Of a stretch of DNA of 64,000 nt, positions 37,538 to 62,525 are shown in pieces. Below the pieces are notes generated by a model. It searched no databases, was not told the DNA's origin, and saw only the letters and a list, made by a program, of their open reading frames with translations. How positions within the stretch are numbered: position 1 is the stretch's first letter; every line of letters begins with the position of its first letter. The position numbers and the translations under genes were made by a program. This DNA comes from Spizellomyces punctatus DAOM BR117. Lineage: Eukaryota > Chytridiomycota > Chytridiomycetes > Spizellomycetales > Spizellomycetaceae. The DNA lies in contig NW_015971544.1 in assembly GCF_000182565.1 (NCBI RefSeq), positions 765,803-829,802 on the forward strand. The letters are read 5' to 3'.

Positions 37538-39330
37538 GCCGCTCTGCTGGAGCGGGTAAGTGGGGTATCCAAACTATACTTTCTTATCTAGTCAACTCTT
37601 TGTGATAAAGAAGAAGCTAGAGGGAACAGCTTTTGGCTTTTCTTTCTATTTTTTTCGCTGAAAAGCTGCGATGCAGCAAGGAGGTTCGTGAGAAAAATGC
37701 TCAGATTTGCTGTAAATAGTGCTTGCAATTCAACATACCAGTCTGCTCGGGAGCCTTCAGTCCAACCGTAAGTATTCGTTTGTAGAGGCCTTTGTCGGCA
37801 AACTGCGAATGATTAAAAACAGTGAGCTTTGAATTCACCATTTTCCTTCTCCCTGGCGTGGAAACACCGTTTCCCTGTCTGACCCGGCTGCCACATTCAT
37901 CGGACTGCATTCACCGATTGCAACCCGGTAATCGACAGTAGCAACTCTTGTCCACTTACCCACAAAGCCGACACGCCTTTGCAAAAGATCACACCAATCC
38001 GACAGGTCCTTCCAAGTCGACTAAACCCACCCAGGAGAACACGGGGGTATGTTTTGTTGCACGTTCCAACCAGAACAGTAGCCAACCGCTATCTCGAAAT
38101 CACAAGCCAGAAAAGCAGAGTTGAAGAAAGTCCCGCAATCACCTTCCACACCCGCTAAAATAATAAAAAAAAAACCAGGTCAATCCAACAAGGAAAATGG
38201 CCCAGCGCAGTGTGTCTGCTGTGTTTTGAGACTGGGGCGAGTGTCGACAAGCGTGCTAAGCGCGTTCAGGAGCTTATGCGGCACACCAATTATAAAATGG
38301 GGGAAGATCTTGTGACTTTTTGTTGGCTGGCCTTTTTTTTTCCTCCTTCCTTCCTTCCTTCTTCTTGGACTTTAAAGCTTGAAGGCCTGCAAGGAAGAGA
38401 TGATTTCCTAGCCTTTGCAGCACACGCACACACACATGCAAGTCTTTTGGGGCGAGGGTTGAACACAAAAAGACGGTACTGTTTGTCCAATTCTTTGACG
38501 ATAGGGCATCTAGACCCATCAACAGGGGAGCCCTGAAGCAAAATTCCTTCCCCTCCCCCAAAATCCATTTACATCACTATCATCTGCGCAGCACTTTTTG
38601 TCCTGACTGGGGGATTCTGACTGAATAACTCTGGTCTTTTACGTTGTTTTGGACTTTTCGCCCTGCTCTGAATGTTGACGTATGTTGGCGAGACCCAGCC
38701 ATGTTGGTGCTTCCTATTGAAAACTCCACTACCTATGTGGACAAGGAAACGATAGATCTATTAAAAAGTTTCAACATTTACTGGACATTTGTGTTCCACC
38801 GTTAAGTTGCGATGGTGCTGGGACTCGCATATAAAACGCTCGTTTCCCATTTTGAAGCACTGTTGGAACTTGGTTTCTGCAGAAAGAGAGGTCCCAGCAT
38901 TGAAATATCAATTGTGCTCACTCGTTTTTCTAATGCATGTACACTCCAACCATCAATGAGTGCTATTGCAAAGGCAGCTAAATCCTACACTGTTTATCGC
39001 CGGGCACCTTTTATGGCACACTGCAACACTAACTTGCAACCATGCAGTTAGTGTAGGAGTGGTACATGGTTGCATGGCGTTTATGTCTGGAGGATTGGGC
39101 AATGACCTTTGTTGTCATCATTTCTGTACAAGTATTCACTTTATCAATATATCAAGGACTTGGCAGCTAAAATAGGAAATCCAACACTTTTCGAGTTCAT
39201 ATCACTTGCAAGGGCGGGTAATATCACACATTTCATTTGAAAGCTTCAACCGCTAATCACCTATATTCAAACATGGAGTTCTCTATAATTGATTTCATCC
39301 AATCTTACGATCATCATCTATGCTGTTTCA
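37538..39330. other. Intergenic region left of the transposon island
   Basis: Only short frames on both strands without domain features. A (CTTC)n-type pyrimidine microsatellite lies at about 38332-38362. 38700-39330 is AT-rich with no recognisable gene or repeat. Confidence 0.5.
38332..38362. repeat. Pyrimidine microsatellite, T-run then (CTTC)n
   Basis: A T-run is followed by repeated CCTT/CTTC units on the plus strand. This is simple sequence with no coding role seen. Confidence 0.8.
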
Positions 39331-39361
39331 ATAGTGCGGAGCCGATGGGTATTGGCACTAG
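39331..39361 (+). repeat. Left terminal inverted repeat of the Fanzor element
   Basis: 31 bp matching the inverse of 50340-50370 with one mismatch (G versus T at the 17th base). On the minus strand this is the 3' end of the element, just past the Fanzor stop codon. Confidence 0.9.
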
Positions 39362-39430
39362 CACCCGCACCAGGGATTGAACCGGCGACAACCAGTTCGG
39401 AAAAGGTAATCTAACTAATCTACGCTACGG
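39362..39430 (-). ncRNA. tRNA-like segment at the Fanzor 3' end; candidate guide-RNA scaffold
   Basis: Between the Fanzor stop codon and the terminal repeat the minus strand has a B-box-like GGTTCAATCCC (39383-39373) and an A-box-like TAGCGTAGATTAG (39426-39414). The T-stem and acceptor stem pair poorly, so this is not a working tRNA. In Fanzor and TnpB systems the guide RNA is made from the 3' end of the gene through the element end, so a structured scaffold is expected exactly here. Both readings are inference. Confidence 0.4.
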
Positions 39431-40089
39431 CTGGAACACCCCTGCTGAACACTTTTGGTCTACCGTGTCCATCTAACATTGATTGCACGATCATCAGCAT
39501 GTTGCAGGTGCTCAGCGTGTCCCTGTTCCAGTAGCGCATCGTCCAGGCTTGCTGACAGTTAGGGTTGGTACAACCCAGCAATCCATGGACTTTTTCAATC
39601 TTGCCTTCGCGACGGCGCCAAGGTCTTGAATGAGGTCGTGTTTTGAAGCCTTTTTCAAGGAAGTCAGCAGATGAGGCCAAACAGTGAGGGCAGACAGATG
39701 AGGTCTTGTACTCGTCGAGAAGGAAGCAGTTGATCCTGTTGCGCTTAAAGAGGGTGCGCCAACCTTTCGTCTTTGATGAGGTCTGAAATCTTGCAGTTCG
39801 ACCGGCATCACTCCAATCACCCATCACAATGGTGAAGTTCCCAAACTTGTTGCGCATGTTGGATATGAGGTTTGATTCACTCTTCTGACGGTTTATAAAT
39901 GCATGCCACTTCCACTGCGTGTGGGCAGGGTGGGAGTAGAATTCCTTTCGATGATCTGAATCTGTGCGGCAAACAAGAAGGTAGCAAGTGAAGTCCATGA
40001 GGTTCATCGTCTTGTGGCTTGGGATATGTGATTCTATGAGGTCCATTCCCGCTTCCTTCTTCATCTGCTGCCGTTCCTTTGCAAATCGC

Positions 40090-40141
40090 TGTGACAGTGC
40101 ATATTTTTATGATTGCAATCATAAAAATATGCACTGTCACA
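40090..40141. repeat. 52-bp perfect palindrome inserted in the Fanzor gene
   Basis: The two 26-nt arms are exact inverse copies, starting TGTGACAG and ending CTGTCACA, with the centre between 40115 and 40116. It is flanked by ATCGC on both sides, a possible 5-bp target duplication. Palindrome plus duplication is 57 bp, a multiple of three, so the Fanzor frame is the same on both sides, but it adds in-frame stops. It looks like a tiny foldback or MITE-like insertion. No second copy was found in this window. Confidence 0.85.
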
Positions 40142-40643
40142 ATCGCCGGCTACCAGTCTCCTTGCAGCATTGATTGGCGGTATAGCGAAACATTGTTGCA
40201 CCATTGCTGTCTTGGCAGTAGAGAAGGTCGTGCTTGTTTGGGTCGATAATGACAATGTTCTCTGCTGCTTGACAAGCAGGCAAGTTGTTTTCCACATAAA
40301 GCGCTTTAACCTCTGCCTCCATCTTGTTTGCTGACTTTTTCCCTCTGCCGCTGTGCTTTCCATACTTGTCAGCTTCAGGATGTTTCAAGTAAACTGACAC
40401 CGAGGTACTGTCTGTCATGATTGAGCCTTCAAACTGCATACCACAGCGAGACTGAAAAGCTTTGGTACATAGATTACAGATGCGCAACCATAAATCGACC
40501 TTTTCGACAGTTTCCGCTTCTCGTCGCGTGATGCAAAGAAGGTGAGAGTAGAGGATGATGGTGTCGATTTGCACGTGACTTTGAATGAGCGAGCGATGAA
40601 GAGGTATGGTGCTAAACCGTCGAAATCCGTGATGCTCATAGAG

Positions 40644-40646
40644 TCA
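40644..40646 (-). other. Premature TGA in the Fanzor frame
   Basis: The frame reads TGCAAACTCTCC-TGA and continues open in the same frame for over 160 codons (LYEHHGFRRF...). CGA-to-TGA at a CpG would explain it with one change, consistent with CpG decay seen in the LTRs. Confidence 0.8.
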
Positions 40647-41116
40647 GGAGAGTTTGCAGTATGCAGGAAAGAAGGCGAGAGGGTCTACAGCAACCGAATA
40701 TGTGAGTGGCTGGTCGTCAGAAAGGGGAATGCTAAGGGACCAAATCTCTTCTAGAAGTTCACTCTCTTCAGCAGTCAAGTCATCAAGCGACTCAGGCACA
40801 ATATCAAAAAGGAAAATTGACTTCAAGTAGTGAAGACGAGCAAAGAAAGCGTTTTGCGCATCGCTTTTCAGTGGCAGTCGCTGCTTCTGTCTCTTCACAT
40901 CAAGCCACAGATTAATGTACCGGAGCAGCATCATCATGAAGTGTTCCTGGACATTGACCTTCAGATTCGTCATCATACTCGCTGTCAGATAATTGACTGA
41001 TTGCTGCTCTTTTTGTACATTTGGATGAACGAAGCCGACGATGTTGCAGTACCATTGGATGTATGGCAACAAGGATTCGCATAACGCCTTCTTTGCACCA
41101 GTTTTTGGTTGCCATG

Positions 41117-41120
41117 ATTC
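41117..41120. repeat. Left target-site duplication of the retrotransposon (ATTC)
   Basis: ATTC precedes the LTR here and follows the other LTR at 49946-49949. Collapsing the two copies restores the Fanzor frame across the junction. Confidence 0.9.
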
Positions 41121-41692
41121 TGTAACGGATTTTTTGTTGGTAGACTATGGTAAAGACAACTTGGGTCTCCTAGCAGGTTGTGTGGGTGTCCGTACTAGGA
41201 ATCGTAGTCTCCAAATCCTTTCTTTGGGCGTCGGTAGCGACTTGAGGGCGAGAGGCAAGGAGAGTCGGTTAGTTGTGAACCGAGCAGGATTTAGAGGCTT
41301 CAGTGCAGGTGATCAGGCCGTTGAAGCGCTCTGTTAGGTTCCTGTTAACCTAGGATTGGGGTTGAGAAGCTAGTTGTGGGGATTTTTTGTCGCTACGGCT
41401 TCTGGCCGCCGACTTATTTTATTGAATTCCTCTTTTTATACAAGAATATGCTACGGTAACGTCTACACTAGTTTCCGTAGCCTTCATTAGGGTGGCGGCG
41501 TCCGATCTTCCCATCTCGGACCATCGCCATGATCGATCATGGCTGCGTAATGTATCCTTCATGCTGCGCTGGTGTAGCCCAGAACCGAGCTTGATCTTAG
41601 GGGTTTCGAAGCTTAGGTTACAATTGTGGAAACCTCAATCATGGTCACCTGATGCCTTTGAGTGAACCGGTTTATCAGAGTCGTTCGCTACA
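41121..41692 (-). repeat. 3' LTR of the chromovirus
   Basis: 572 bp, starting TGTAACGG and ending CGCTACA on the plus strand. Nine substitutions separate it from the other LTR, all CpG transitions. Confidence 0.97.
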
Positions 41693-41702
41693 TCCCCCCT
41701 TC
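41693..41702 (-). promoter_or_regulatory. Polypurine tract (second-strand primer)
   Basis: The minus strand reads GAAGGGGGGA immediately upstream of the 3' LTR, the expected place for the plus-strand DNA primer of an LTR retrotransposon. Confidence 0.8.
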
Positions 41703-41749
41703 GAAAAAGAAGGTTCGGCGACTCATCTGTGAGTGCCCGAACCTCGCTT

Positions 41750-44700
41750 CTACCATGACGCAACTGGATAGTCGTCGTCAGCTTCAAGGCTGTCTTCATT
41801 GATCATCCAGATTATGGTAGCGCGCCCCATGACGTTCGTGCAGAACCAAATTTGGTCAGTGGCTTCCGGAGCCGGGGTTCCAGGTGTCCTGGAACCGTTG
41901 GCTCGGGTTACGTAGAGGGCTGTGAACGTCTCTGCGGCCCTTTTCAAGTTAACCGCTCGAAAGTGGTAATAGGCGTGCTCCCGATGTTTGGGACGGAGCT
42001 GCTCTTCTGTGGTTTCAGCTGCGTTGGCTAGCTTTAACAACACTGCTCTCGCGGCTTCGATGGCTATGTCCGCGAAATCGTGGGCCTCGCGATCGGGCCA
42101 GAGGGTGAAGTGGGCCGTTTTGGGGTTTCCGGCCGCATGTTGAGGGACCCCAGCGTCAAGCCAGGCGGCGCAGGGTACGTCCCGTAATCTCTTCCCGATC
42201 TTTTTTGCGTCAGCGACGATACCGACAGCTGCTTGACCACCGTCGGAAGCCCTACTGTAGGGCTCCGCGATATGCATCGTGAGGGGCTGGCTCGTGGCGT
42301 ACGGCTTTGAAGCCCCGTCAACCACCCAATCTTCACCACGATAGTGTTCGAGGGGTTTGTTTGGGTCTTCGAACAGCTCACGAATCCAAACTTCAACCCA
42401 GGTGGCCATAGCTGCTCCGAGCTGCTCGATAGAGTTCTCGGCAGCGAAGGCGTCGCTTACTTCTGACCAGGGATAGCCTTCCTCAAGGGTAGAGAGGATG
42501 CTGACTCCTTGTTGTCCTCGGATATCGGTGGTCATGGTGTTGGAAACGAAAGCTTTTGTCTCGGTGTTGATAGACAAGGTTTGCGAAGCAGAGTAGGTCT
42601 GTAAGGGAGATAGGTCGTAGGTAGTTGAAGAAGAAAAAAGAGGGGGAGCGTGCAGGGGCGTCCTTTTAAGGTCGTTGCCGGCTGATTTTGACAGCTCGGA
42701 CGCGCGTAAGCGTGATCGGGAGGCTTGGTGTGGCGTTCTTGACTGGTGAGGTAAGCCGCGCGAAACTGGTTTTCTTTCTGGTGAGAGGGCGTGATTATCA
42801 CGTGAGCTATTGTCCGGATAAATCGTGAAGCATTGGTGGTCGGAAGCATAAGCCAGGGCGTCACCTGCAAAGCTGACTACCAAGGAGTCCTCTACTAGTG
42901 CGCTAGTGGGAGCTCTGGATCTCCAGTACTCTTCTAAGGCTTCGGAAGCCTCTGTTAGGGCTTCCTCTGGTTCCCAGGTATCCTCATGGGGTGGGTATCC
43001 AGCCCAACGTATTCGAAATTGACGCTTTCCGCGCCTGGTTTGATGGTCTACTATTGCTTCCACTTCGAACTCGCCTTTTGAAGCGTCGGAATCCTCCATT
43101 TGTGCTTCCGCGATCCTTTCCTCAGTTTTGGCGTCGACAGGCTTCTGGTACGGACGTAATTTCGATATGTGAAACCATGGGTGAAGTCGTCTCATCTTGT
43201 CTGGCAGTTTTAGCTCATAGTTGTCGCGGAGAGGGTTGCAGTCGGTCACCGTGACTGGTCCCAGCCATTTCGGAGCGATCTTGGACTCATACCCTGCTAG
43301 GTTTTTTGTGCTCAGAAGCACCTTATCTCCTCTCCGGAACTCCAGATGTCGTCGCAATAAATCGTAATATCTTTTCTGCGAGTCCTGGGCCTCGATCATC
43401 AGATCCTGGATAAGGATGTTTAGGTCTCCAAGATGTTTACAGAGCTCTTCCGCGTCTGCATTTCTGGTTTCTGACGGCCTTTCAACGATGTCCGCCAGTG
43501 GATTGTGGGGCTCATAGCCTAGGTCCATCTTGAACCACGTCATTTTTGTCGCCTCGTGTACCGTATCGTTGATAATGAATTCTGCAACCGGAAGAAAGGT
43601 GTCCCAGTCGTCTAATCGGGTGTTGACCATTGTGGTAAGGACCTGCAAGACCGTTGCGTTGTCTCTCTCTGATTGTCCATCACCTTGAGGGTGGTAGGCT
43701 GTGGTGAGCTCTTGATTAATCTTTAGGTTTTTGCAGACCTCCTGCCAAAATCGACTTGTAAATTTGGGGTCGCGGTCTGAGATGATAGTTTCCGGGATGC
43801 CGTGCAATGGGACGTAGTGTTCTATAAATAGTTCCGCGACCTGAGTAGCTGTCGCAGTGCTCTTGAAGGGCCATACGTGGATCCTCTTTGAGCATTTACA
43901 AGCTATTAGCCAAAAGGCATCGTACCCTCTGGAAGTAAGTGGGAGCTTGGTTACGAAGTCAGTTGTGATGACTGTCCAGCGTCCCGGAGCTGGTGGTATG
44001 GGTTTCAACAACCCCGGAATCAGTTGCAGTACCCTTTTTGAGCGTTGGCAGGTTTCACATCCTGCGCAATGTTTTCTGAAATCTTGTGCCATTTTCGGCC
44101 ACCAGACTTGTGCTGCAGCTCTAGCGTAGGTTCTTTCGAATCCGAAGTGTCCTCCCCCCTCGTGAAAAAGCTTGCGCACCTCGGGGGTGCAAGCAGGGGG
44201 CACGTAGAGGCGCCAAAGGTCTTCGGAGACTGAAAAACGGTGCCACAGCAGGTTATCTGCACGTTGCCAGTCCTGAAGAAAGCGCGCGTCGGCTGTAGTG
44301 TAGGTGTCGGGGCTGGTCTCCCATAGGAGCGTGCGGGCCTGTTGGGCTATGGGGTGGAGCTGGCTGGTGAGGCCAGCGCGGATGGCGGCAATGAGTGCAG
44401 GCTGTAAGGCCAGACGAAAGACGGCATCTGCCAGTGTTGAGGAAGGTGCGAGAGCAGCTGGTGTGGTGCGCAGCCGTCGTCTTCCGCGTTTCGACACCCA
44501 TATTTGGGTCGCGGTGGAGCAGAGTAGGGTTTCCGCTCCTAGTAGCCGTGAAAGTGTATCAGCGACAATGTGAAAACGTCCTGGTTTGTGAACGATTGTC
44601 ATCCATTCGGACCAGTAACTAAGATCGAGGGCCCAGCGGAGAAGCTTACGGTTCTCGCCTTTGTATTTAGCGAGCCACAAAAGAGCTCGGTGATCAGTAA

Positions 44701-47700
44701 TGACCGTGAAAGGCAGGCCTTCGAGGTATGGGCGGAGTTTTCCGAGGCCCCAAATGAGGCATCCGGCCTCGAGTTCGACGGGGGGGGCCTTCTTTTCCGA
44801 GGTGGTGGTGCCTCGGGAATGGTAGCACAGCGGGTGTTTAGAAGCATCCGGCTGTAACTGTTCGAGCGTGACATTAAATGCTGTGTAGGAAGCGTCACTG
44901 TGAAGGGTGTAGGGGAACCCTTTTCTGGGTGCCGCGAGCACTGGAGCTGTTGTCAGAGCCTGCTTGGCGGCTGCGAAGGCAGAGTTTCGGGAATCGGTCC
45001 ATGAAACTTCACGCTTCGCAATAAATCTGCGCAGACCTTGGTCGGGGCGCTTGCGAGCAAGGCGTCCGACACAAAAGGGGTCAATGGGTAAGTCCGCCAG
45101 CGATGATTGGCGTAGATTGACCACCGGTAGGTCTGAGGAGCTAGATTTCGGATGTTGCGAAACCTCAAATCGGGCTCCGGTGGCTGTGATTGTAGGGGCC
45201 ACCGCCGTGTCGAGCATGGATGGTGAATTGAGCTTTTCAGCGCCTTTCTTCGGGTCAGCGCGACCCTTTTTAAGGTCTCGGTATTTGCGAACGCCCTCTT
45301 GGATAGCGTCTTGCAGGGGTCGGACGAGTTCCGCGTAGCGAGAAATGAATTGGGCGTAGAACCCTAGGAGACCCACAAATGACCATAGGTCACCTATGAA
45401 TTTGGGTTGTGGCCAATCGACTATGGTTGCGACCTTGTCTGGATCGGTAGCGAGACCCTGAGAGGAGGCAACGAAACCGAGGGCCGTGAGCTGGTGAAAG
45501 AGCCATTGACACTTGTCAAGTCTTAGGGTGAGTTTGGCTCTGGAAAAGCAGTCGAGCCAGTCCGCGATGGCGTCTAGGGCTTCCGCGGCTGTCTCCGCTC
45601 GTGTGTGGATATCGTCGACGAAGTTGTTGATATTTCGCCATTTGGAGGGACCCAAGGTGTCGTCCATCACCCGACAGAAGTGCGAGGGGGCAGTCTTGGG
45701 TCCGAAGGGCATAAAGAGTGGTTCATAGATGCCGTCATGGAGTCTGAGCGCGAGCCATTTGCGTACCGACGCATCGGTGATGGCGATTTGGTAGAATCCT
45801 TTGTTTGCGTCACCTCCCGATATGTATCGGAATGGGACTGCGATGATCCAGTTCAGGATGTCGAGCATGATGGGAAAGGGATATGGATCCCAGGCCATGC
45901 AGTCGTTGGCTCGGCGATAGTCGAAGGCTACGCGCGGGGGTTTGTCTGCATAGCGAATGATAACAGGATCGCTGGCGAAGGTTACTTCGGTGGTTCGTTT
46001 CCACCTCTGAAGCCCCATCATGGTGTCTCGCTCCGTCTCGAGGGCTGTGCGCTCCAACGGAGAGTACGACCGTGGCCTCGAAAGGGGTGGCGGAGCCGAG
46101 ATAAATCGAGGCGCATAAGGAATCTTGGTGTAGTTCCCTATGAGATGACCCTCATAGCTGAAGGCTTGATGGAAGTGTCGTAGAATGTTGATTAGGGCCC
46201 AGACCACAGGTTTGGGTCGCTTGAGATCGACGTGGAAATGTTCCGCGTCTTTTAATTGGGCTTCGAAGGCCCCTGGAGCCCTCTCCGTAGAGTCGAGGTT
46301 CCATTTGTTCCAAAGTGTCTGCCATTCTTCTTTGGAAATGTTCTCTTCGGGGTCCGCAACCGAATTATGGGTCGCGGTGGACAGTTTGAGGCCTAACGGG
46401 ACTGTTGAGCTAGCAGCGGTGGCCTCAAGAGGGTTTTCGATGAGAAAAGTTTGGGCTGCCACGCACGTCTGTCCCGTGATTAACATGGTTAATCTAGACT
46501 TCTGAGCTTTGGCTTTGGTCAGCCGTGGCATTGACACATCCTTCATGAATTCACCCTGCTTGGTTTTGTATGGCGTGCCGCGCATGTGATCGGTGTCCAG
46601 CTCATCCGTTATGGAGCAAGGGATAAGGATGTCCGGATTCTTGAGCGTCACCGCGAAACTGGGTAACGGGGGTTCCTGAACCAAGGTTTGGAGTTTCAAA
46701 TGTCCCAGAACATCGTTGGCTAGGATGATGAGAGGTTTCCCATATGCAATGACTCGGAAATAGGCGCGGAAAGTCAGGTATTCTCCTCCGCGGCCTCTGA
46801 GGGAAGTTTCGAGGCATACTGTCTTGGTAGATGAGATACGTCCACCAATGCCTTTGAAAGCCATCGTTTCCGCATCCTGCAAATCGGTTTCGGAGAACAG
46901 AAGGCCCTGGTACGTGTCGGAAACCAGAGACTCGCAGGCTCCTGTGTCTAGTACCACAGGTGCCCAGAGCTGAGCGATGACGGCTAGCGTCCAGCAAGGC
47001 TGCGTTTGGGTCTTGGTCTGGCTTTTGAGTACATCGCCTAAATCTACCGAGTAGAAGGCGTTGATGGAAGGCACCACGACCTCGAAATGGGGCACGATGT
47101 CATTAATTGTTGCTTCCGTAGCCTTGATCGCACTCTCAAAGTGCTCTCTAGATTTGTCGTTTTGTGGTTTTGTTGTTTTATTCTGGCGAGCAACTTGTTC
47201 GATAGCCAGCATGACTATATGCGTCCGTTCGCTCTCTTCGTGTCTTTGGAGATGTGGATGGTCTTTAACGTGCAGAAATTTGGGGTTTCCGCGACGATAA
47301 TAATAGTCTGAGCGAACGATATTGCCTGTCAGGAGAAATGCCACCAGTTGCAGGTTGGCGTAAGAATCAAAGATAACAGGATCTTCGGAGCTCCACATCA
47401 AGAATTTCTCACGCTCGTCGAGCCTTATCCAGGCAAGGAGGATCAAACGAGGGGTACCATCTTCTCGGACTTTTCGCAGGATTCGATCCTTGTCAGCTTT
47501 GGCTGCGGCAGCGATGTAGAGGTGGTGGGAACTCCACGCAACTGCGTAGGGGTCGTTCCCGAGGTGCCCGGCGCCTCGCTTCGGTTCTTTGGCGAAGAAG
47601 CTGAGCGCGCGGGGGTTGTTGCCCATCATCAGAGCCACTTGCGGGGTGCCCCAGATGATGGCTATGTTGTCCCAGACTTGGTCCCAGCCCTGCGTGGGCG

Positions 47701-49297
47701 TGCGGGGGTCCTCTTCCTTGGTCACCGTGACCTTGGAAAGAGGTGCGGTCATCAAAATTGTTGATTCCGAGTGCTCGGGTGAATGAAAGAATCCGATGGT
47801 GTGGAATCCTTGATTAGCGGTGGCTGTCCTTTCCAGTTCCGAAGCCGAAAAAAGAGTCTCGGTGGTAGCGGACGTCGAGTCCAGCTCCACTATGTACGAC
47901 TTCTTGGACTCCTGTTTGGGTTTCCAACCTGCGGGCATGGGTGCTCCGTATGGTCCCTTCTTTCCATCTTCAGGATCTTTTCGGTTCAGGTTCTGCCAGC
48001 AGAAAACATTCCAATGCTTTTTCTGACAGAATTTGCAGGGTGCCGGTGGTTCCGTGTTGGGGTCCGGAACCATCTTCTGAGGGCCGTCGTGACCCTTTTC
48101 GGGGTTTCCGGTTTTATGTTGAGCCGTCTGCTTAGGGCCTTTGTCGATTCCGGTCTTTTGTGACTTCTTCTGAGCTTCAGCAGCACCGCTGTAGCAAGGG
48201 TCTCGTTTTCTGGTGTCATCAGAGCCGAAATAAAGGCGCAGGAAGTCTTTTAATTTGGTCAGGTTCATGACGTTACAGGATTTGACCATGATTTGGATGT
48301 CGCTGGGCAATTGTTCGACTATTAGGTCGAAATGCTGGTCAGCGGGACATTCTATGTTTGCCCGGTCGCCGTATGCGAGGCGCCGGAGATGAGTTTTGTG
48401 GTCAATGAATGCGAGAAAGCTGCGAAATTCTTTGGGGTTCGCGTGGCAGCGCACATATTCGGTTTTGCGCTTGGACTCGGTTAGGGGATCTCGGAACTCT
48501 CGAAGCAGTTCTTCTTTCCACCTTTTCCAGGTCCACGAGCGAGTTTCCTGGGCTTCCAGAGTGTAAAACCAAGCGTCGGCAGGGGTTTTCTCGGCTATCA
48601 TGGCTGGTAGGAGCTGTACCATCCTGGCATCCAATGTTGCGCTAACGTTTTGAAGAAGTTGGACTTTGTTGAGCCATTCTTCAACGTCTTGGTTTCTTTT
48701 GCCCGTAAACTCGGGTACGTCCTTTGCTTTCAAGGAATCGACCTTGGTGTCGCTGGCCCACGGGGCTGCTGGCACTTGGATTGGAGGCACCGGACCTGAA
48801 AAACTTGGTTCGGTACGCTCCCTTGGTGTGTCCGACGTTTCCCACGGGGTTGCGGACCGTTCTCTTGTAGCTCGTGCTATGAGAGGTTGTTCAGGCAGCG
48901 GGCGATGCACTAGGGCTTCTAAGGCTCGTGCGAGGCGCTCATCCACCGCTGTCTGACGTTCGGAAAGCCTATGAAGCTGTTCCGTAAGGTTTTGAGTTGC
49001 CAACTGCGTTGCAGCAGTCGAGCGGGCAATGTCTTCTTTTAACGCTGCCACTTCAGAGGCCATCGTGGCCAAGTTAGGGGCTTCCGGTTCGACGGAAGTG
49101 GTCCCTGAACGCCTTGGGCGTGTTGCGGGAGGGACTTCGACGTCCTCCGCAGGACCCTGACTACGAGTCTGGATCACAGGTGAGCGGCCTCGCGTTGGAG
49201 AGCGTTCGACCGGCATCATTCTCGGTTTCGTGAAGTCTGTTTCCGAAACGAGAGAAAAGGTTTCCGAGTAGCTACCTGAGCGGATCTCGGTTTGCAC
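41750..49297 (-). CDS. Chromovirus Gag-Pol polyprotein with extra C-terminal domain
   Basis: A single frame of 2,515 residues; approximate positions follow. Gag core lies at 190-370, with a zinc-knuckle-like CKFCQKKHWNVFC near 425. The aspartic protease is DTGACES near 780. Reverse transcriptase has its catalytic pair in NFVDDIHT near 1225. RNase H spans about 1460-1570 (LHSDAS, then DHRALLWL). The integrase zinc region is HEGGGHFG..CAGCETC near 1710-1745, with DDE core DFV, SDRDPKF and the Glu of GDGQSERDN. The chromodomain (VEAIVDHQTRRGKRQF, RWAGYPPHEDTWEP) is near 2070-2125. Beyond it lie a Ser/Pro linker and an unfamiliar domain of about 260 residues (2253-2515). Gag and Pol share one frame, as in Tf1-like elements, so protein ratios would depend on processing rather than frameshifting. 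Confidence 0.95.
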   Translation of the reverse strand: MQTEIRSGSYSETFSLVSETDFTKPRMMPVERSPTRGRSPVIQTRSQGPAEDVEVPPATRPRRSGTTSVEPEAPNLATMASEVAALKEDIARSTAATQLATQNLTEQLHRLSERQTAVDERLARALEALVHRPLPEQPLIARATRERSATPWETSDTPRERTEPSFSGPVPPIQVPAAPWASDTKVDSLKAKDVPEFTGKRNQDVEEWLNKVQLLQNVSATLDARMVQLLPAMIAEKTPADAWFYTLEAQETRSWTWKRWKEELLREFRDPLTESKRKTEYVRCHANPKEFRSFLAFIDHKTHLRRLAYGDRANIECPADQHFDLIVEQLPSDIQIMVKSCNVMNLTKLKDFLRLYFGSDDTRKRDPCYSGAAEAQKKSQKTGIDKGPKQTAQHKTGNPEKGHDGPQKMVPDPNTEPPAPCKFCQKKHWNVFCWQNLNRKDPEDGKKGPYGAPMPAGWKPKQESKKSYIVELDSTSATTETLFSASELERTATANQGFHTIGFFHSPEHSESTILMTAPLSKVTVTKEEDPRTPTQGWDQVWDNIAIIWGTPQVALMMGNNPRALSFFAKEPKRGAGHLGNDPYAVAWSSHHLYIAAAAKADKDRILRKVREDGTPRLILLAWIRLDEREKFLMWSSEDPVIFDSYANLQLVAFLLTGNIVRSDYYYRRGNPKFLHVKDHPHLQRHEESERTHIVMLAIEQVARQNKTTKPQNDKSREHFESAIKATEATINDIVPHFEVVVPSINAFYSVDLGDVLKSQTKTQTQPCWTLAVIAQLWAPVVLDTGACESLVSDTYQGLLFSETDLQDAETMAFKGIGGRISSTKTVCLETSLRGRGGEYLTFRAYFRVIAYGKPLIILANDVLGHLKLQTLVQEPPLPSFAVTLKNPDILIPCSITDELDTDHMRGTPYKTKQGEFMKDVSMPRLTKAKAQKSRLTMLITGQTCVAAQTFLIENPLEATAASSTVPLGLKLSTATHNSVADPEENISKEEWQTLWNKWNLDSTERAPGAFEAQLKDAEHFHVDLKRPKPVVWALINILRHFHQAFSYEGHLIGNYTKIPYAPRFISAPPPLSRPRSYSPLERTALETERDTMMGLQRWKRTTEVTFASDPVIIRYADKPPRVAFDYRRANDCMAWDPYPFPIMLDILNWIIAVPFRYISGGDANKGFYQIAITDASVRKWLALRLHDGIYEPLFMPFGPKTAPSHFCRVMDDTLGPSKWRNINNFVDDIHTRAETAAEALDAIADWLDCFSRAKLTLRLDKCQWLFHQLTALGFVASSQGLATDPDKVATIVDWPQPKFIGDLWSFVGLLGFYAQFISRYAELVRPLQDAIQEGVRKYRDLKKGRADPKKGAEKLNSPSMLDTAVAPTITATGARFEVSQHPKSSSSDLPVVNLRQSSLADLPIDPFCVGRLARKRPDQGLRRFIAKREVSWTDSRNSAFAAAKQALTTAPVLAAPRKGFPYTLHSDASYTAFNVTLEQLQPDASKHPLCYHSRGTTTSEKKAPPVELEAGCLIWGLGKLRPYLEGLPFTVITDHRALLWLAKYKGENRKLLRWALDLSYWSEWMTIVHKPGRFHIVADTLSRLLGAETLLCSTATQIWVSKRGRRRLRTTPAALAPSSTLADAVFRLALQPALIAAIRAGLTSQLHPIAQQARTLLWETSPDTYTTADARFLQDWQRADNLLWHRFSVSEDLWRLYVPPACTPEVRKLFHEGGGHFGFERTYARAAAQVWWPKMAQDFRKHCAGCETCQRSKRVLQLIPGLLKPIPPAPGRWTVITTDFVTKLPLTSRGYDAFWLIACKCSKRIHVWPFKSTATATQVAELFIEHYVPLHGIPETIISDRDPKFTSRFWQEVCKNLKINQELTTAYHPQGDGQSERDNATVLQVLTTMVNTRLDDWDTFLPVAEFIINDTVHEATKMTWFKMDLGYEPHNPLADIVERPSETRNADAEELCKHLGDLNILIQDLMIEAQDSQKRYYDLLRRHLEFRRGDKVLLSTKNLAGYESKIAPKWLGPVTVTDCNPLRDNYELKLPDKMRRLHPWFHISKLRPYQKPVDAKTEERIAEAQMEDSDASKGEFEVEAIVDHQTRRGKRQFRIRWAGYPPHEDTWEPEEALTEASEALEEYWRSRAPTSALVEDSLVVSFAGDALAYASDHQCFTIYPDNSSRDNHALSPERKPVSRGLPHQSRTPHQASRSRLRASELSKSAGNDLKRTPLHAPPLFSSSTTYDLSPLQTYSASQTLSINTETKAFVSNTMTTDIRGQQGVSILSTLEEGYPWSEVSDAFAAENSIEQLGAAMATWVEVWIRELFEDPNKPLEHYRGEDWVVDGASKPYATSQPLTMHIAEPYSRASDGGQAAVGIVADAKKIGKRLRDVPCAAWLDAGVPQHAAGNPKTAHFTLWPDREAHDFADIAIEAARAVLLKLANAAETTEEQLRPKHREHAYYHFRAVNLKRAAETFTALYVTRANGSRTPGTPAPEATDQIWFCTNVMGRATIIWMINEDSLEADDDYPVASW

Positions 49298-49360
49298 AAG
49301 AGTTTCGGTACAACTGAATAAGGTTTTCAGCTGAATTTGAGAGGGGAAGGCAGTTCGTCG

Positions 49361-49373
49361 CGCTTCTCCACCA
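49361..49373 (-). promoter_or_regulatory. Primer-binding site of the chromovirus
   Basis: TGGTGGAGAAGCG on the minus strand lies directly after the 5' LTR with no spacer. It starts with TGG, complementary to a tRNA CCA end. The donor tRNA was not identified. Confidence 0.7.
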
Positions 49374-49945
49374 TGTAACGGATTTTTTGTTGGTAGACTA
49401 CGGTAAAGACAACTTGGGTCTCCTAGCAGGTTGTGTGGGTGTCCGTACTAGGAATCGTAGTCTCCAAATCCTTTCTTTGGGCGTCGGTAGCGACTTGAGG
49501 GCGAGAGGCAAGGAGAGTCGGTTAGTTGTGAACCGAGCAGGATTTAGAGGCTTCAGTGCGGGTGATCAGGCCATTGAAGTGCTCTGTTAGGTTCCTGTTA
49601 ACCTAGGATTGGGGTTGAGAAGCTAGTTGTGGGGATTTTTTGTCGCTACGGCTTCTGGCCGCTGACTTATTTTATTGAATTCCTCTTTTTATACAAGAAT
49701 ATGCTACGGTAACGTCTACACTAGTTTCCGTAGCCTTCATTAGGGTGGCGGCGTCTGATCTTCCCATCTCGGACCATCGCCATGATCGATCATGGCTGCG
49801 TAACGTATCCTTCATGCTGCGCTGGTGTAGCCCAGAACCGAGCTTGATCTTAGGGGTTTCGAAGCTTAGGTTACAATTGTGGAAACCTCAATCGTGGTCA
49901 CCTGATGCCTTTGAGCGAACCGGTTTATCAGAGTCGTTCGCTACA
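49374..49945 (-). repeat. 5' LTR of the chromovirus
   Basis: 572 bp, same ends and length as 41121-41692. On the minus strand it is upstream of the polyprotein and should contain the promoter. Confidence 0.97.
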
Positions 49946-49949
49946 ATTC
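49946..49949. repeat. Right target-site duplication of the retrotransposon (ATTC)
   Basis: Pairs with 41117-41120. Confidence 0.9.
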
Positions 49950-50204
49950 ACCTTTGTTGAGAAGATAGAGGATGGCTTCAATTGTCTCTTGATTTACTGT
50001 GGGAAAAACTGGCACTGATGATGAAAGGAGATAGAATTTCAGCGCGTGGGAAGCGTGGTCGGCGAGTTGATGGATGATGGCGATGTAATCTAGAAGCCGT
50101 TGGCGATAGTTTGGCAGGAAAGCTTTTGCAAAGGAAGTCTTGTTGCAGGTATGTAAGGTGGGTTTGTCGAGTTTTTCAAGCTTTTGCTTCTTTTTTGGTG
50201 GCAT
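49946..50204 (-). pseudogene. Fanzor N-terminal part, cut off by the retrotransposon
   Basis: The ATG at 50204 begins MPPKKKQKLEKLDKP, a lysine-rich stretch that would serve as a nuclear localisation signal, followed by a helical region (RLLDYIAIIHQLADHASHALKFYLL). After 86 codons and one base it meets the LTR. Skipping the element and one ATTC copy continues in frame as GE-SWQPKTGAKK in the segment ending at 41116. An upstream in-frame ATG at 50291 exists, but the one at 50204 gives the usual basic start. Confidence 0.88.
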
Positions 50205-50339
50205 TGATGATATCTGTGGGAAAAGATGAAAGCCTGGGAAAATGGGCGACGACAACTTATATAGGATTTTTTGGATCAAACCATAGTTCATGAGTCTAAA
50301 TCGAGTAAAATTATGATTAAATTGGTTGGAATCTATGTA

Positions 50340-50370
50340 CTAGTGCCAATACCAATCGGCTCCGCACTAT
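50340..50370 (-). repeat. Right terminal inverted repeat of the Fanzor element
   Basis: Inverse match to 39331-39361 (30 of 31). On the minus strand this is the 5' end of the element; the flanking minus-strand sequence reads TTACATA before GTGCGG. Confidence 0.9.
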
Positions 50371-51052
50371 GTAATTGCTTTCAACATTCTAAACAAAATT
50401 TGCAACCATCTCTTGATATTCAACTGTAGTGGTAAAAGACAACAACACATGGCGGAAGGGTTCAGAGGACCCAAAAGCAATCCATACTTTTGGTACAGAT
50501 TAAACATGGAACGCTGATAACAAAGGACAAGCAATTCTCCTTAGGCTTTTACTCAACCCAACGGGATGGTGAAAGAACAGGATGCATGGCTTATATTCGA
50601 GCTGGCTGGACAGTAAACAAACTGAATATCTTGCATGCAGCACATTGGTACTGTCCGTGACAGTATATGTGAATCCTGATACTGAATAAATTCTGACCAT
50701 CATTTGTTTAGGCCAGCAGTTCATCAAAAGAAAACGCTGTCCCTCGCCAAGTCTTCGTTTGCGCAGCCCTTGAAACTCTGCACAGACGATCGCGCGGAGG
50801 GGGCTTTTGCAATGTTTCATCTTGTGAGTTGTGTCCATAGCATCGCGGCTGGGAGCGGCCATTTCTGGTGGACACTCTCGCTTTACAAGGACCATTGTTC
50901 AACATCACCGTTAACGGTCGTTTTTCCTGCTGTCACCGTGTGAGGAAGCAGTGCATTTCAAGCCAGAGGGTAGTATTTTGCCTCGGCGAGAAGTAGACAT
51001 TGTGAGCTCGTCTAGTTTCCATTGTTGAGTTAGCTGGACTCGTTGGAGCGAC
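50371..51052. other. Intergenic region right of the transposon island
   Basis: Open frames at 50500-50943 overlap on both strands without domains. Promoter side of the OSCA-type gene. Nothing else supported. Confidence 0.5.
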
Positions 51053-62433: not shown

Positions 62434-62453
62434 GGGTACCGAGCACTTGACAT

Positions 62454-62525
62454 GCGAGATGTGAGGATCGAACTCACGACCTTGAGATTATGAGACTCAC
62501 GCTCTACCGACTGAGCCAATCTCGC
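62454..62525 (-). tRNA. tRNA-Met (anticodon CAT), elongator type
   Basis: 72 nt with a 7-bp acceptor stem (GCGAGAT/ATCTCGC), D arm GCTC-A-GTCGGTA-GAGC, anticodon loop CTCATAA and T arm GTGAG-TTCGATC-CTCAC. There is no intron and CCA is not encoded. The 31-39 T-T mismatch also occurs in the yeast elongator tRNA-Met as I remember it. A B box (GGTTC-like, GAGTTCGATCCTC) and a T9 terminator support transcription by Pol III. Confidence 0.95.

Follow-up and report, generated by a model that had tools for sequence, protein, structure and literature searches.

A Fanzor1 gene split by a chromovirus in Spizellomyces punctatus, and the frequent insertion of this retrotransposon family into SPu-1 transposons

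The closest described system is the SPu-1 transposon, for which the part of Bao and Jurka (2013, PMC3627910) drawn on here gives a 2.1-kb unit with 33-bp TIRs, TA duplications and a 633-aa Fanzor1, and 17 full-length copies, nine of them with an intact ORF. For the SpuFz1 loci, the sections of Saito et al. (2023, PMC10432273) used in this study describe inverted repeats, a CA before the left repeat, CATA as the TAM and a guide-RNA end, and report additional genes at 11 loci, among them Gypsy/Ty3 elements lying inside the Fz gene or up- or downstream of it. One integrated Polinton-like virus is on record for S. punctatus in the consulted part of PMC7805220, where 16 such elements are described with TIRs in seven, 5-7 bp duplications in three and either an RVE integrase or a tyrosine recombinase. 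SPu-1 (2013) and Gypsy/Ty3 elements inside Fz genes (2023) are already published, and the split gene reported here is a further instance. Worth following are the bias of one retrotransposon family to Fanzor-bearing elements, its near-absence in the listed ghosts, which are Fanzor-less, guide-only SPu-1-type elements, and its CpG-only divergence. These points touch on the reasons for the residence of Fanzors in transposons and on the ways in which Fanzor copies are lost or multiply.

The window, by which we mean the whole 64,000-nucleotide stretch analysed (C8:765803-829802), belongs to a genome of 23,997,880 bases in 29 contigs and has a G+C content of 44-56% (per 2 kb). Sanger reads underlie the published assembly. 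It contains a TIR/TA element in which the Fanzor gene is broken by a chromovirus, a palindrome and a TGA, while the guide-RNA end is unchanged (Table 1). A tRNA gene lies at 62453-62525 on the minus strand (Rfam RF00005, 68.8 bits).

Table 1. Features of the interrupted SPu-1 copy (positions within the window)
Feature	Position	Strand	Basis or remark
SPu-1 transposon with its nested inserts (TIR element carrying Fanzor1)	39334..50367	-	TIR pair, TA on both sides, CATA at left end
Left-end TIR	50340..50367	-	CATA before it at 50368-50371
Right-end TIR	39334..39361	-	followed by TA at 39332-39333
Predicted guide-RNA (omega RNA) gene	39317..39406	-	~75-nt scaffold at right end plus guide 39317-39331
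N-terminal Fanzor piece of 86 codons, starting at ATG (MPPKKKQK)	49947..50204	-	8gkh residues 396-485, E 5e-42
Fanzor piece 2, ends at TGA	40647..41116	-	8gkh 485-644, E 2e-70; query 40647-41144
In-frame TGA	40644..40646	-	ORF limits and sequence
Fanzor piece 3, IDPNK at 40233-40247	40140..40643	-	8gkh 646-809, E 6e-85
Fanzor C-terminal piece	39420..40089	-	8gkh 807-1032, E 7e-129; match 39423-40106
Motifs in Fanzor C-terminal piece	LLDEYKTS 39699-39722, CPHC 39681-39692, CTNPNC 39555-39572, WNRD 39519-39530	-	
Perfect 52-bp palindrome	40090..40141	.	GCGAT at 40085-40089 and 40142-40146
Chromovirus (Ty3/gypsy with chromodomain)	41121..49945	-	one open frame, 2565 aa stop to stop
3' LTR, 572 bp	41121..41692	-	
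5' LTR, 572 bp	49374..49945	-	
GAAT target-site duplication, copy 1	41117..41120	-	
GAAT target-site duplication, copy 2	49946..49949	-	

The four Fanzor pieces all lie on the minus strand in one common frame without any frameshift. Searched separately against the PDB sequences, they cover SpuFz1 (PDB 8gkh, chain 8gkh_P) end to end and colinearly, and this match of all four pieces places the copy by sequence in the Fanzor1 family; two of the four also matched the Parasitella Fanzor1 9cf0. Pfam gave no family for the three C-terminal pieces and only sub-cutoff matches for the N-terminal one, and NCBIfam returned nothing meaningful for the three C-terminal pieces. Identity was settled by the PDB sequence search. 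The Fanzor1 motif D-X(125,275)-[TS][TS]-XX-C4 zinc finger-X(5,50)-RD, as given in the part of PMC3627910 used here, is present in the window copy with 179 residues from D to TS, including the palindrome, and 10 from the last Cys to RD (counted by hand). The joints between the pieces are the chromovirus, the TGA and the 52-bp palindrome; with these three interruptions the nuclease ORF is not intact and the window copy is a pseudogene. An earlier note on this DNA had claimed a minus-strand Fanzor gene whose halves are parted in frame by an LTR retrotransposon, three lesions in all, and the persistence of the IDPNK, LLDEYKTS and WNRD motifs and the zinc finger cysteines, and the present results confirm these points, the cysteines standing in CPHC and CTNPNC. 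The N-terminal piece has the 86 codons described but lies at 49947-50204 instead of 49946-50204. The note had overlooked the TIRs of SPu-1, the flanking TA and CATA and the end that carries the guide RNA.

The inverted repeat pair bounding the SPu-1 copy is 34 bp long and 94% complementary, and 28 bp were used as TIR; TIRs and TA duplication are both present. Genome-wide, CATA stands before 32 of the 36 SPu-1 left-end matches, and one of these matches, L025, is apparently an isolated left end that adjoins a right end. The left ends of L054, L062, L077 and L079 (4/36) lack CATA and read TATA in three cases and TATG in one; guides of such copies would have no TAM at their own empty site. The limits of the predicted guide-RNA gene were inferred from the part of PMC10432273 used here. 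Since the right-end 100 nt are identical to those of the intact copy L022, and also of L072 and L075, the sequence of the guide-RNA part is undamaged. Its fold was no better than that of shuffles (z -1.0). A search of the assembly for guide targets (CATA plus the right flank) found none with 0 or 1 mismatch; at 2-3 mismatches there were 10 sites, compared with 5 for the reversed control. The locus itself is among the 10, and its occupied site is ACTA and not CATA. A distant Fanzor relative with 22% identity and two TGA, unlike the SPu-1 family, was seen at L059 (C7:74287-74904).

The element inserted in the gene measures 8.8 kb and carries the domains PF00385, PF17921, PF00665 and PF00078 plus RNase H (Pfam), so that integrase and chromodomain (PF17921, PF00665, PF00385) are both present, as are the LTRs and a target duplication. 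The 4-bp duplication and the TG...CA LTRs characterize the insertion as one of integrase type. Exact 4-bp duplications were found in six of the eight events checked, and all six differ; L066/L067 and L055, a truncated element, showed no duplication at the limits used. These signatures bear on the idea that Fanzor cutting produced breaks which captured retrotransposon DNA. Fanzor does cut DNA under RNA guidance, and recombination between SPu-1 copies occurs, but exact duplications and TG...CA ends are the marks of an integrase, and the insertions are scattered inside the element whereas guides correspond to flanking sequence, which leaves break capture with hardly any credit.

Among the matches listed, the chromovirus family occurs in SPu-1 far above chance and at scattered sites, and hardly in ghosts. 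Its two LTR types were searched genome-wide and the best 40 of 76 and the best 40 of 78 candidates were scored, yielding at least 64 LTR copies in the merged list. Counted by hand from the tables, there are at least 15 direct LTR/SPu-1 junctions, defined by a gap of 0-16 bp on one side or both, in at least 14 loci, namely the window, L037, L046, L087/L088, L055, L056, L057, L060/L069, L061/L072, L062, L064 with L065 (one locus, two events), L066/L067, L073/L074 and L076; L047, L075 and L078, where LTRs lie near SPu-1 without touching it, remained uncounted. Within the element of 2127 bp, their positions range from about 121 to 1978. Of 70 SPu-1 TIRs, 22 have an LTR at a distance of 2.2 kb or less, versus one of the 100 ghost TIRs listed of 141 (Fisher p 5e-9), a comparison in which the two TIRs of an element are non-independent, two C7 elements resemble duplicates, 41 of the 141 ghost TIRs stay outside, and the shortness and setting of the ghosts may explain part of the contrast. 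Random points taken from 23 contigs of known length came within 2.2 kb of an LTR in a mean of 0.88 per 70, with a maximum of 5 (300 draws). At 700 bp the contrast was smaller (7/70 SPu-1 TIRs vs 1/100 ghost TIRs listed, p 0.009). The group of integrase domains to which that of the window element belongs has 29 members, 13 of which fall within SPu-1 intervals, and only 2 of 20 of a higher-scoring group do; the two groups were separated by score in our own split, the intervals pair ends by inference, two of the 13 domains (C3, C21) lie in intervals for which the LTR itself served as outer limit, and three of the 13 come from a single locus. An SPu-1 insertion bias was not reported in the literature searched, and Saito's locus tables may already list this locus.

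The same distribution could arise by survivorship if the chromovirus inserts anywhere and only insertions into dispensable transposons persist, SPu-1 being safe ground. Some insertions outside SPu-1 do lie in other mobile elements, such as a gag gene (L082, E 2e-18) and a D5_N element (L097), and one is, by position, in a ghost (L094). Nevertheless, SPu-1 pieces in the fetched loci make up 88 kb of 24 Mb, which is presumably far below the intergenic space, and ghosts are dispensable too, yet they are almost free of LTRs among the TIRs listed. Although sequence alone cannot decide between targeting and survivorship, we regard the latter as unlikely.

Several further observations concern these loci. 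At L094 s867 (C20:401566) a ghost SPu-1 end with CATA has an LTR of the chromovirus family about 400 bp away. Genome-wide, ghost TIR matches number 141, near the 134 published ghosts. Some SPu-1 elements (L087/L088, L060/L069, L043, L062/L063 and L061/L072) enclose nests in which retrotransposons and virus-like genes together occupy roughly 20 to 57 kb, if their ends are paired as inferred. Some flanks that looked copia-like gave nothing meaningful in Pfam, and this label was not used as evidence.

The divergence between paired LTRs of the chromovirus family is located almost wholly at CpG. Over nine of ten pairs, 136 of 682 CpG sites differ compared with 4 of 1888 non-CpG C/G sites and 1 of 2635 A/T sites; CpG thus accounts for 136 of 141 differences and changes about 94 times as often as C/G sites outside CpG, with every C/T difference scored as ancestral C, a choice that favours CpG. 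The tenth pair (C12: 54 differences, 29 of CpG type) was left out of this rate because its LTRs are 94% and 90% identical to those of the window and maybe do not stem from one insertion. The window LTRs themselves show nine differences, every one in CpG context. In the aligned Fanzor copies the in-frame stops comprise 58 TGA, three TAA and one TAG, and 51 of the 58 TGA sit where another copy carries CGA. As a side observation, the LTR decay is far more CpG-specific than plain drift and possibly RIP-like. The part of PMC12695648 used here reports 5mC in Spizellomyces only on transposons, and no report of CpG decay in this genus was found in the literature searched. Such near-exclusive CpG decay is a warning against dating these insertions by plain LTR divergence.

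The C-terminal piece has 57 matches in the genome, 15 of which lie in frames of at least 627 aa stop to stop and contain no stop; among these L022, the copy read from ATG to stop, spans the junction, as expected from the earlier note's assumption of intact copies in the same genome. The window copy is 100% identical to L022 in its first 150 bp and at 1800-2100, nearest to L026 (C8:164150-166800) between 450 and 1050, and 90% identical to the nearest sampled copy at 1350-1500. Across 28 long copies, incompatibility of sites up to 100 bp apart was 0.495 vs 0.673 (sd 0.009) after permutation at non-CpG sites, and none of 500 permutations was as low, a result that holds with and without CpG-type sites. 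Therefore, SPu-1 copies have exchanged sequence and are recombination mosaics. Gene conversion between such mosaics might also have spread the chromovirus, so that many matches would reflect few events. We consider this highly improbable, as the 15 junctions lie at different positions, no two of the six duplications agree and only the C7 pair looks duplicated. The claim that the gene died recently stands in part: the LTRs show no non-CpG difference and the gene ends equal intact L022, but the middle is mosaic with its 90% stretch, and the sequence does not tell which of the three lesions came first.

A perfect 26-bp arm such as that of the palindrome is expected by chance anywhere in 64 kb with a probability of about 1e-11. 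It resembles the ends of virus-like inserts in other SPu-1 copies in its frame, AGTGCAT...ATGCACT, and in a 5-bp duplication but not in the inner letters, and it may be a leftover viral end. Origin as a chance or repair-born hairpin appears rather improbable to us: neither the palindrome nor its arm recurs in the genome when up to three mismatches are allowed, but the frame has 13 genome sites versus none in the reversed control, 10 of the 13 are palindrome-like by eye and seven of these 10 lie in five SPu-1 loci. Moreover, palindromes stand at both ends of one SPu-1-locus insert, 16.8 kb long on C4, with TAGGT duplicated (by eye). This insert carries a D5_N helicase-type ORF (L097; Pfam), and D5-type genes presumably belong to Polinton-like viruses. 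The SPu-1 insert of L043 has a retroviral-type integrase ORF (E 8e-17) without chromodomain match and two 96% copies elsewhere. In the insert on C16 (L063), DUF5906 matched below its cut-off. The window itself holds one such palindrome only and not both termini with viral genes. A reading of the palindrome as an intron (GT-AG inside) was dropped, since removal of 52 nt would not keep the reading frame (worked out by hand). At L098:1803-3101:+ and L101 there are long ORFs that contain repeats of TTDSSSTTTGALQVAGGVGI-like units and have no Pfam match; they perhaps encode virus structural proteins.

Taken together, we consider it very probable that the locus is an ordinary dead copy of SPu-1, a 5mC-marked family favoured by chromodomain integrases, and that it may supply guide RNA in trans. 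SPu-1 copies would bear the 5mC and heterochromatin of transposons, the chromodomain of the integrase would steer new copies to them, and CpG deamination would add TGA stops. No Fanzor would be made at this locus, while its right end could still give the predicted guide RNA for the Fanzor of intact copies, with the guide probably aimed at the empty site of this very element, in which CATA would adjoin the right flank. More tentatively, and with doubt prevailing, chromodomain retrotransposons, and perhaps Polinton-like viruses too, might insert by preference into the Fanzor transposons of this fungus. They would thereby silence the nuclease family again and again but spare its guide-RNA genes, so that dead copies become guide donors for the nucleases that survive. 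Dozens of Fanzor loci and more than 100 guide-only ghosts offer a natural contrast for heterochromatin-guided integration and guide supply in trans, and they do so in a transformable chytrid in which one retrotransposon family enters Fanzor-bearing loci repeatedly and ghosts hardly.

Compared with SPu-1 in the portion of PMC3627910 used, the window copy shares the unit, the TIRs and the TA but differs by its 11-kb size, its nested inserts and the lack of an intact ORF. It resembles the SpuFz1 loci in its inverted repeats, CATA, guide-RNA end and a Gypsy/Ty3 element in the Fz gene; in the sections of PMC10432273 drawn on here, Ty3 in the gene is taken as past transposition, without a rate, a ghost contrast or a CpG analysis. 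With the Polinton-like viruses in the consulted part of PMC7805220, which have an RVE integrase or a tyrosine recombinase, one may compare the SPu-1 inserts of this genome that carry RVE and D5-type ORFs; the window has only a solitary 52-bp terminal-type palindrome. With known chromoviruses the window element has in common the gag-pol order and an integrase with a C-terminal chromodomain, but it differs in that one Fanzor transposon family is a favoured host here.
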